DNA of 42,921 bases, from positions 1-42,921 of the forward strand of contig JAJECO010000082.1 in NCBI GenBank assembly GCA_022822005.1, in the 5' to 3' direction. A program made the position numbers and the translations under genes. This DNA is from Candidatus Poribacteria bacterium. GTDB taxonomy: Bacteria; Poribacteria; WGA-4E; PCPOR2b. Shown one piece after another: positions 22,937-36,312 of this stretch (positions within the stretch are counted from its first letter, which is position 1; each line of letters starts with the position of its first letter). Below the pieces are notes generated by a model, which was not told the DNA's origin, did not search any database, and saw only the letters and a program-made list of their open reading frames with translations.

Positions 22937-23025
22937 CCTACGGAGTTCCTTTAAAAAAAGGCAAAATGCTAATAGAAACCGAGTTTTTTCTTCAAAACTC
23001 GGTTTCTGTTGCGCGATTTCTTAAC
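22910..23025. repeat. GTTGGGT palindrome and 13-bp-stem hairpin
   Basis: GTTGGGT (22910-22916) pairs with ACCCAAC (22931-22937). Then GAAACCGAGTTTT (22975-22987), loop TTCTTC, and AAAACTCGGTTTC (22994-23006) form a perfect 13-base-pair stem, followed by TGTTGCGCGATTTCTTAAC. It lies downstream of aroC on the minus strand and could end its transcript. A split copy of the hairpin arms is at 27907-27992. Confidence 0.7.
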
Positions 23026-23042
23026 AGGCGCCGAAAGGCCCA

Positions 23043-24125
23043 TCAATCCAAAGTTTTAGCACGTTGTCGAAGAAAATGATCGACCAATACCAATGCGGTC
23101 ATCGCCTCGACGATGGCAGGGGCACGGGGCAAAACACATGGATCATGTCGCCCATGTGCGGACAGTGTGACAGGGTTCCCATCGAGATCCACGGTTTCCT
23201 GTTCCTTGCGGATGGTAGCTGTCGGTTTGAAAGCGATCTGAAAAACGACGTTTTCGCCGTTTGAGATACCGCCTTGTGTCCCGCCGGAATTGTTCGTCCG
23301 TGTGCGAACACGTCCGCCGTCATTGTAGAATGGGTCGTTATGCTGTGAGCCGGTGCCGACCACACCGCCGAAGCCGGAGCCGATCTGGAAGCCCATCGTC
23401 GCCGGAAGGGACATCATCGCCTTTGCCAAATCCGCCTTGAGCTTGTCGAACACCGGTTCGCCGAGTCCAACGGGTACATTACGCGATACCGATTCGATAA
23501 TCCCGCCGAGAGAGTCGCCATCTCGTCGCGCCTGATCAATACACTCTGCCATCTTCTCACTGGCTATCGGGTCTGGACATCGGACGAGGCTGGACTCAAT
23601 CTCGTCAAGCGTTACAGTCTCCGCATCGATCTCCGCTTGGATTGTATGGATCTGCTTGACGTAGGCGAGGGTTTCGGTCTCACACTGCTCGCGTAAAATC
23701 TGCTTTGCGATCGCGCCCGCTGCGACCCGTCCGATCGTCTCACGGGCACTTGCTCTGCCACCGCCTTGCCAGTTACGGAGACCGAATTTCTGCTGGTAGG
23801 TGAAATCGGCGTGCGACGGTCGATACACATCTTTGAGATGTTCGTAGGCGGAGGGTTTCGCGTCTTTGTTCCACACTAACATTGAGATTGGCGATCCGAG
23901 TGTCTGTCCCTCGAAAACACCGGACAAAATCTCCACCCGATCTTCTTCCTGACGTGAGGTTGTGAGATGGCTCTGTCCCGGTCGTCGCCGATCCAGTTCC
24001 GCCTGAATAGTATTGATATCGATTGCAAGTTTCGGTGGGCATCCGTCAATCACGACACCGATCGCCCCGCCGTGCGATTCGCCCCATGTTGTAATCCGAA
24101 AGAGATGACCAAAGGTATTTCCCAT
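23043..24125 (-). CDS. aroC: Chorismate synthase
   Basis: The last enzyme of the shikimate pathway: it makes chorismate from 5-enolpyruvylshikimate-3-phosphate using reduced FMN in the cytoplasm. Signatures are [23 protein letters not shown] at the N terminus, [19 protein letters not shown], and [17 protein letters not shown]; the C-terminal [16 protein letters not shown] is complete. At 360 residues it has normal length. The start at 24125 gives the canonical MGNTFG-type N terminus; GGAG and AGGA lie close upstream. Stands alone between repeat-rich gaps, with no other aro gene in the window. Confidence 0.96.
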
Positions 24126-24282
24126 TATCCTGCGCTCCAATTTAGTTTCGCATCGTTTCCTCGTGGGAACATTCAAGCATCCGCTAAGATCTCCCTGATG
24201 GAATTGGGACTAAAAACAGCTTGACAAACCCGCGATGCATCCATTACTCTAACCCCAATCTGAGGCTTGAAAGCATTGATGC

Positions 24283-26706: not shown

Positions 26707-27738
26707 TCATATCTTTTCAAACGCTACGATATCTCGATGGATTTTATCAGAGATCCGAGCCCGCAGATCCGCATCAGCGAAACGTTGTCGGAACCCGTGT
26801 TTCTGGATCAGATTGAGCACCCTTTCGCGGGGCAGTGTCTTTAAATTATACGCAACTACAACCGTTCCGTTGGGTTTGAGTAGGCGTTTCCAACTTGGCA
26901 GCGCCTCATCCAGCAGCCCATCTAACGGAATCGGCGCGAGTTTTTCGTTTCGACTACCTGCGCTGACGCCATACGGAAAATCCGTGATTAAGCTATCGAA
27001 TTGCTGGTTAGGCAGATATTGATGCGCCTCTCGTGTATCGCCATTGATGATCTGATACCGGTTTTGGGGAGGGTCGTGTGTTACGAACAGATGGCACGCT
27101 CCTTCCTGGGACTCTTCAAAAGGTATCCCAAGCCGCTGCAACAGTTTTCGGAGATTCTCGGCGCTTCGTTTCGAGGCTGTAGGAGAAATCTCCAGTGTCG
27201 CACCATCAACCCCTCTTAACACGCACTCGAAAAGTGTCTGTCCGTAACCGCCCATCGGATCCAGCACACAGTCGATAGGTTCGGCGTTGGAACCGAGATT
27301 CAGCATCGCACGAATCAGGTAGGGAGATTGCCTCGCCGGGGATTGGTAATCAAACGCCTGTGGAGAAATTGTCGCGACCCAACCTTTGTCGAGCGTGAGG
27401 GTCGGTTGGCGCCCCCCAGATTCAACGAACGCACAGAAACCGTCGTAATCCTTCCGTAGGGATTCCGCCACGCGGTGGTCAGTGGAACCCTCCGCCCTAT
27501 CCTCCCAAATGAGCATGTCGATCTGTATCAGAAATGTCATCCACCGGCATCGCTCGATCGCTTCAGGCGTCAACCCACCCGTATGCCAAACGATACTCCC
27601 CGGCGGATAGATCTCCGGCGTTGCCACCTCGACGACATGCGGCAGCAGATTCACAATTTCTGCCTCAGATAACCGTCCAACGATCCCCTCGTGACCGCTG
27701 ACCTGCTTGTATTGAAAGTAGTAGACTGATAGGCTCAT
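26707..27738 (-). CDS. TRM11/UPF0020-like methyltransferase
   Basis: A 343-residue Rossmann-fold methyltransferase. The C-terminal half has VLDPMGGYGQTLFECVLRGVDG (S-adenosylmethionine site), INGDTREA, and the amino-methyltransferase motif DFPYG in LITDFPYGVSAG, where DPPYG is usual in tRNA G10 (TRM11) and related enzymes. The N-terminal half is divergent, with no clear THUMP domain. ATG 27738 lacks a strong binding site. Probable target is RNA, but DNA or small-molecule methylation is not excluded. Confidence 0.78.
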   Translation of the reverse strand: MSLSVYYFQYKQVSGHEGIVGRLSEAEIVNLLPHVVEVATPEIYPPGSIVWHTGGLTPEAIERCRWMTFLIQIDMLIWEDRAEGSTDHRVAESLRKDYDGFCAFVESGGRQPTLTLDKGWVATISPQAFDYQSPARQSPYLIRAMLNLGSNAEPIDCVLDPMGGYGQTLFECVLRGVDGATLEISPTASKRSAENLRKLLQRLGIPFEESQEGACHLFVTHDPPQNRYQIINGDTREAHQYLPNQQFDSLITDFPYGVSAGSRNEKLAPIPLDGLLDEALPSWKRLLKPNGTVVVAYNLKTLPRERVLNLIQKHGFRQRFADADLRARISDKIHRDIVAFEKI

Positions 27739-28032
27739 GTTAAAATCCAGTGTAAGACACTAAGAGGTTGAAACGTGATGCGTGAAACGTGAAAGCAGTT
27801 TGTTCATTTGTTCATTGGTGCAGCCGGGCTAAGAAGCCCGTCCCCGATAAATCGGGATGCAAGCACCTACGAGGCTCATCGAAAAAGAAAGTGCAAAACG
27901 TAAAGAGAAACGGAGTTTTTTAACCCCCCTGCGAAGGGGGGAAAGACAATCCCGATTCATCGGGACTTGTCAGGGGGGTCAAGCTCGGTTTCTGTTACAC
28001 AATTTCTTAACGTGAGCTCTAAGAAAAAAGGA
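27739..28032. repeat. Repeat-filled gap: split hairpin interrupted by C/G-tract palindrome
   Basis: A GAAACGTGATGCGTGAAACG direct repeat lies near 27771. At 27907-27920 the left arm GAAACGGAGTTTTT is separated from the right arm AAGCTCGGTTTC (27981-27992) by a C/G-tract palindrome (27922-27979) with an internal CCCGATTCATCGGG. The right arm continues as TGTTACACAATTTCTTAAC, like the intact hairpin at 22975-23025. No gene is seen. Confidence 0.6.
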
Positions 28033-28098: not shown

Positions 28099-28461
28099 AT
28101 GCGCCGACTCATCGTTTGGATTTCAGTGATACTGGCGATCGGTTTAATAGTAATTATAACTGTTGCACTGGTCAGGATGCCACAAGCAACGCCGAAAATT
28201 TTTCCAGCAGACCGGGGGCCTAACTTCATCGATGTATCAGTCTATTCGTCAGAGATGCAGGAAAACTACAAGTTGTTTGAGCAAAAATGTAGCCGCTGCC
28301 ATACCCTTGCCCGTCCAATTAATTCAGAATTTGTTGGGGAGGAGTGGCGAAAGTATGTCTACAAAATGATGCGGAAACCGGGGTCAGGACTGACACCGAA
28401 CACAGCCGAACCGATTATTCAGTTTCTGATTTACGATTCTAAAGTTCGGACAAAAGAGTAA
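28099..28461 (+). CDS. Small monohaem c-type cytochrome-like protein
   Basis: A 120-residue protein with an N-terminal membrane anchor or signal (VWISVILAIGLIVIITVALV) and a haem-binding CSRCH (Cys64, Cys67, His68). The following WRKYVYKMMRKPGSGL could supply the Met sixth ligand. The C terminus NTAEPIIQFLIYDS resembles single-haem sensors or electron carriers. The haem would be attached outside the cytoplasmic membrane. TAGGAG precedes ATG 28099. An FGE-like gene follows after 32 bases, so they may be co-transcribed. Confidence 0.82.
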   Translation: MRRLIVWISVILAIGLIVIITVALVRMPQATPKIFPADRGPNFIDVSVYSSEMQENYKLFEQKCSRCHTLARPINSEFVGEEWRKYVYKMMRKPGSGLTPNTAEPIIQFLIYDSKVRTKE

Positions 28462-36174: not shown

Positions 36175-36312
36175 CCTAAGTTGCTATCTATCAAACCCGC
36201 TCGGCTTGGATAGACATATCCAAGTCCTAGACTCTCCCCGATAAGATCGGGACAGGCGGAACGGAGCCGTTTTCGTGCGTGTGCAGTGGATTTGCCAATC
36301 CACTGCGAGCGG
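36175..36312. repeat. Double-hairpin repeat, copy 2
   Basis: CCTAAGTTGCTA, then CTTGGATA-GACA-TATCCAAG, an insert with TCCCCGATAAGATCGGGACA, and GCAGTGGATT-TGCC-AATCCACTGC (36283-36306) followed by GAGCGG and TTTTT. It lies between the convergent DUF6807 and TIM-barrel-like genes and could end both transcripts. Confidence 0.7.

Follow-up and report, generated by a model that had tools for sequence, protein, structure and literature searches.

In the genome of a Candidatus Poribacteria bacterium, the two arms of one hairpin are separated by a second, C/G-tract palindrome. The question raised by this locus is whether one repeat was inserted into the loop of another and, if so, whether the inserted family is attracted to hairpin loops. 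The host is a bacterium of the sponge-symbiont type, and the window, which is the whole stretch of 42,921 nt analyzed here, is contig C97 of the 6.0-Mb genome G000, whose assembly consists of 97 contigs. The locus is intergenic, between a DNA-methylase-like gene (26707-27738, minus strand) and a small cytochrome-like gene (28099-28461, plus strand), both recognized as open reading frames; their names, like that of a chorismate-synthase-like protein at 23043-24176, were read from translations. The whole nested repeat array spans 27732-28018 on the plus strand and includes, in this order, a second left end of an element designated as A (27732-27767), a GTGAAACG repeat, two small hairpins, and a copy of A with the split hairpin.

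The split hairpin, designated as h (GAAACCGAGTTTTTTCTTGAAAACTCGGTTTC), has its left arm (GAAACGGAGTTTTTT) at 27907-27921 and its right arm (AAGCTCGGTTTC) at 27981-27992, and the inserted palindrome, designated as B2 (AACCCCCCTGCGAAGGGGGG..CTTGTCAGGGGGGT; 58 nt), occupies 27922-27979, all on the plus strand. The same strand carries an uninterrupted h with a six-base loop at 22975-23006, where the right terminal repeat of A follows at 23005-23031. The first-pass annotation had located the split arms at 27907 and 27992 and the intact hairpin with its six-base loop at 22975-23006, and these positions are correct. It had also taken the arms to be the same at both sites; they do match, but the split copy differs from the intact one by point changes. 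The intact arms are GAAACCGAG and CTCGGTTTC with AAAACTC, while the split copy shows GAAACGGAG and AAGCTC, and the two halves in the window align with the intact copy over 37 nt at 78% and 31 nt at 87%. The loop bases CT are missing from the window copy, and thus its junction is not clean. Four levels are nested in the window, as B2 splits the h of A and itself encloses a CCCGAT..ATCGGG hairpin (TCCCGATTCATCGGGA; 27950-27965, plus strand), which is replaced by another C/G core in the B2 copies on contigs C1 and C35. The folding energy of the 146-nt element (A including B2) was compared with those of shuffled sequences, resulting in z-scores of -5.9 as DNA (0 of 200 shuffles as good) and -5.1 as RNA, and a single strand is predicted to form nested stems.

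Element A (27873-28018, plus strand) is a MITE of roughly 91 nt with h at its center, and its terminal inverted repeats are GGCTCAT..GTGCAAA and TTGCAC..TTTCTTAACATGAGC. Its ends were modeled from sequence alone (end models R1 and R2), with 14 training rows for the left end and 20 for the right. The left end (27873-27907) matched its model with the E-value 7.6e-8 and the right end (27991-28017) with 1.1e-5 over the whole 6.0-Mb genome, both window ends being themselves among the training rows. Across the genome, the 20-copy and 14-copy models had 93 and 77 matches, respectively. For pairing, 84 of the 93 and 74 of the 77 rows (158 in total) were used, and the remainder, weak matches with E-values of about 0.17 to 0.7, were omitted. 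Merging resulted in 157 arms, among which 46 pairs face inward within 600 bp, as is expected for the terminal inverted repeats of A. Forty-four pairs were extracted, and the two left out are those spanning other pairs; copies of A are detectable in this way where both ends survive. They span 50-362 bp (50-70 bp in 4 copies, 81-92 bp in 13, and 111-362 bp in 27), a size as for a MITE, the count being one of length and not of coding content. The hairpin h is uninterrupted in 17 of the 44 copies, that is, in the 13 copies of 81-92 bp and in four longer ones judged by eye. A word of at least 6 nt is common to both flanks in 12 of the 44 pairs, against a mean of 0.52 and a maximum of 4 in 500 re-pairings of the flanks. 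These matching words are the mark of a target site duplication of 6-8 bp, which is often seen at other copies of A. No inward-facing pair of arms separated by 0.6-3 kb, as would be expected for an autonomous partner of A, was recognized when the arm list from the 97-contig assembly was inspected by eye.

The interior of A is exchanged among copies, and in several of them other palindromes replace h or sit inside h. GTAG..CTAC-type palindromes are found inside the A copies on C3, C4, C22, C51:120538, and C56, a GGGCGGGGCAAGATGCCCCGCC-type palindrome inside those on C33:429, C43, C64, C69, and C96:125979, and a GTGAAACGTGATGCGTGAAACGTGAAA-type repeat inside those on C51:197748, C58:259047, and C68:45591. 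B2 occupies the h loop in the window and in the copies at C1:135014 and C35:106013. Apart from A, repeats that otherwise match differ by a very short inserted palindromic unit of 20-21 nt (CCCGATAAATCGGGACAGGC type) at 36236-36257 of the window and at three further places in G000 (C54:92478, C93:115798, and C51:113112).

Both flanking genes are common to five genomes of the same genus (G001-G005), and in all five, the array at 27732-28018 is missing or other content is found instead. The orthologous locus of G002 contains a complete, uninterrupted A with h, and its outer junctions are identical to those in the window. In G004, the left end of A encloses another palindrome; in G003, an A-like left end is followed by other repeats; and in G001 and G005, the locus comprises about 30 nt without A. 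The insertion of one repeat into the loop of another, as originally proposed, is upheld by the uninterrupted ortholog in G002, by the 17 A copies with a whole h, and by a copy in G003 in which loop bases still flank the insert, which is preceded by TTTTTTCT and followed by TCAAACTC. A chance resemblance between the arms is ruled out by the matches to the A end models, the alignments of the 37-nt and 31-nt halves, the z-scores of the fold, and the G002 ortholog. The arrangement in the window is a real insertion, and it belongs to a widespread Russian-doll nesting of such repeats.

The strong predicted fold and the intergenic position would also suit a functional RNA, in which the composite serves as a terminator or an mRNA-stabilizing structure under selection. 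The differences at this locus in all five related genomes examined and the free swapping of interiors argue against such a role, and an Rfam search of the whole window resulted in no match at gathering score, indicating no known RNA family. This is the least probable of the explanations considered.

The h hairpin split by B2, written as h[B2], is found at three loci in G000 (the window, C1, and C35). Among 27 matches in six relatives, both junctions are covered at two loci, G005:C132 and G003:C69, the former of which was matched on each strand. The junctions resemble one another at the five loci, which represent two kinds of host context and include both orientations, and therefore the five B2 copies in the h loop probably descend from one old event, as judged from their shared junctions, and then spread. 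The flank complementarity is 12-13 at four of the five loci and 7 in the eroded window copy, while among 2000 random sites (mean 4.6), a value of 9 was reached by 0.4%. At the composite site on C1, G001, G003, and G005 have nothing between the two flanks, which are about 100 bp apart in G002. The composite on C35 is reversed relative to the ends of A, and the copies in the two relatives lie in other or broken hosts, that in G003 being outside A; thus, an exchange between copies or a second event is possible.

That the C/G family is mobile, as the first-pass annotation had also proposed, is confirmed by its presence and absence between species inside a gene and by near-identical inserts in different flanks. 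A 57-nt B2 (L011, C1:25710-25765) is inserted in frame in a hydantoinase-like gene, named from its translation. It is present in G000 and G003 and absent in G002, G004, and G007, while the short C/G form in G001 exceeds the empty site by 24 nt. The insertion site in the gene showed no target duplication. G002 contains B2 without h, with up to 97% identity to the C1 insert, and two B2 copies lie within reading frames that run without a stop for 509 and 838 codons. B2 occurs alone in unrelated flanks, in non-palindromic DNA and open reading frames, and is mainly intergenic among the copies examined. Most copies start with AACCCC and end with GGGG(G)GT, or close variants of these. It is improbable that the nested palindromes grew locally as hairpins caused replication to slip or switch templates, without mobile units. 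The very high density of palindromes, some C/G arrays that resemble tandem growth (C58:155536), and the reduced C/G tract in the hydantoinase-like gene of G001 would be compatible with such growth, but one and the same unit of 58-62 nt stands at unrelated sites, with an identity of up to 97%, and the inserts match repeats elsewhere and not the local sequence.

The remaining question is whether B2 chooses loops. In such a model, the mover of B2 would pick extruded hairpin loops of h and of the canonical C/G element of 32 nt, designated as B1 (AACCCCCTAAATCCCCCTTGTCAGGGGGACTT); a single-strand-specific HUH/Y1 transposase and one that targets inverted repeats are examples of such a mover. The presence of B2 in the h loop at five loci favors this model, as does the transposition of IS1272 into inverted repeats without duplication, described in an excerpt of PMC5678879. 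B1 was collected from 1.243 Mb of contigs chosen irrespective of content, and 51 copies were found, 30 intact and 21 split. None of the 51 copies shows a flank complementarity of 9 or more (0.35 expected by the null), and there is a slight excess at lower thresholds (4 against 1.35 at 8 or more, and 8 against 3.85 at 7 or more). The absence of clearly complementary flanks around the canonical copies is the very outcome that the first-pass annotation had named as contradicting its preference for hairpin loops. Four B2 copies outside h are in flat or coding DNA, and their flank complementarity of 4-5 is that of random sites.

A de novo scan for insertions points in the same direction. It revealed 115 loci, of which 100 remained after removing 15 in arrays of tandem coding repeats or of CRISPR-like type by hand-set coordinates, and these were grouped into 59 junction classes; the scan requires clean junctions and missed the event in the window, so that these numbers are undercounts. 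With a stem score of at least 6, 4 of the 59 classes fall in loops against 5.3 expected, and the figures are 12 against 10.9 at a stem score of 5 and 3 against 2.9 at 7. Counting loci instead of classes results in a mild excess in which B1 weighs heavily, both in the full set (14 of 115 against 11.2) and with a laxer cut-off and longer hosts (24 of 85 against 15.4). The inserts themselves are hairpins in 29 of the 59 classes, compared with 4 of 59 random controls. A general hairpin census with stem cut-offs retained only 47 hairpins, as stems are short, often 6-8 bp, and this is too few for a nesting test. One CRISPR-like array (L126, C93:1-1200) lies at a contig start, with a spacing of about 75 nt (GTTTGGAAGAAGTTTCCCG..GAAGGGAATTGAAAC).

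The loop preference is thus weakened but not closed, since the break lies near the middle in each of the 21 split B1 copies, where the 5' part stops at positions 15-17, the edge of the loop, and since B2-like units also lie inside B1 at several loci of relatives. When inspected by eye, however, the 21 splits amount to roughly three kinds of insert that share a single site, and the end-based search could detect breakpoints only at about positions 12-21 of 32. Separately, B1 in the sample contigs C58, C93, C51, and C54 shows a C5-G5-G5 order as in intrastrand triplex motifs, and it often stands between the recurring flanks TTTTTGATTTTT..ATGAACGCGCTGCGTAAGTCC.

Three genes for Y1 (RAYT-like) transposases are present in the genome (L069 at C54:113495, L070 at C63:3936, and L071 at C58:206220), which would provide a candidate single-strand-specific enzyme for loop-directed insertion, but they are flanked by other repeats. 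A different palindrome family borders each; one palindrome bordering L069 also occurs within the transposase gene region, and the GGCGGGGCATCTTGCCCCGCC palindrome, which adjoins one of the three genes, is also seen among the interiors of A. With respect to the features of REPs, the flanks of the three Y1 loci hold palindromes other than B2, and no GTAG or CGTC tag was recognized by eye on the printed B2 copies. The only model tried for an IS1182/IS1272-type mover of B2 was PF13751, which we take to represent IS1182-type transposases, and it had no match in G000. Neither this search nor the flanks of the Y1 genes revealed an autonomous partner or mobilizing enzyme of B2. Overall, loop-directed insertion is considered unlikely.

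Nested palindromes are already in print. Excerpts of PMC3733652 describe REPs inserted within longer palindromes (GTAG-15 of A. variabilis, GTAG-23 of T. roseum, and CGTC-1 of H. neapolitanus), in which, as here, a short palindromic repeat stands between the arms of another. Compared with those excerpts, the inner repeat here is a C/G-tract palindrome that lacks the GTAG/CGTC tag and lies within a MITE, the nesting is four levels deep, and there is an uninterrupted ortholog. The bacterial MITEs RUP, NEMIS, ERIC, and Nezha, as presented in the same excerpts, resemble A in their terminal inverted repeats, small size, and target duplications, while A differs in the exchange of its interior among unrelated hairpins and in that no autonomous partner was found. 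Rickettsia palindromic elements, from the same source, likewise lie in frame in genes, as B2 does in the hydantoinase-like gene, but differ in sequence and organism, and B2 is mainly intergenic where examined. Palindromic repeats adjoin the three Y1 genes, and some of these palindromes occur inside A as well. This arrangement is reminiscent of the REP/RAYT systems in the portion of PMC2817692 considered, but none of the Y1 genes is bordered by A or B2. REPs serve as insertion targets of IS elements, according to an excerpt of PMC1525189. These insertions and those of IS1272 (PMC5678879, in part) share with B2 the landing of mobile DNA in palindromes, without duplication in the case of IS1272, but B2 is non-coding and its loop targeting is unsupported. 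C/G-rich intrastrand triplex motifs are abundant in cyanobacteria according to an excerpt of PMC4666352, a paper concerning genome instability, and B1 (C5..G5..G5) shows the arrangement of this motif by eye from its sequence. No report on these Poribacteria elements was found in the open-licence literature among the matches listed, and three exact B1 strings had no occurrence in the open-licence papers searched. Noteworthy here are the depth of nesting, the swapping of modules, and the insertion states resolved at the level of species.

The best explanation, to which we assign a probability of about 0.78, is that small, mobile, non-coding palindromes were inserted into one another, with h[B2] made once and then spread. 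Element A is a MITE that would have been moved in trans; its ends and duplications are observed, and they suggest a transposase leaving duplications of 6-8 bp. B2, a C/G unit of 58-62 nt with inverted ends, would have moved without a visible target duplication and, judging from the shared junctions, may have entered the middle of the h loop once, in an ancestor of the genus. Carried along by its hosts, or exchanged from copy to copy, the composite would then have reached at least five loci and later eroded there. The central insertion may have persisted because it spares the ends that A needs for moving, and not through loop seeking. A host function would be unnecessary for this explanation.

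A broader and rather doubtful proposal is a self-nesting hairpin ecology in Poribacteria, in which loops would be preferred, harmless landing places, and composites of at least four levels would move as units and exchange cores, driven in trans by one or more single-strand-specific enzymes. The present data document, species by species, how tiny, protein-free DNA elements enter one another and genes, and such records are hard to obtain since most REP-like repeats defy tracing through their shortness and sheer number. Landing in loops, if shown, would explain the origin of complex hairpins between bacterial genes. For now, the locus offers a useful caution that one event followed by copying can mimic targeting.
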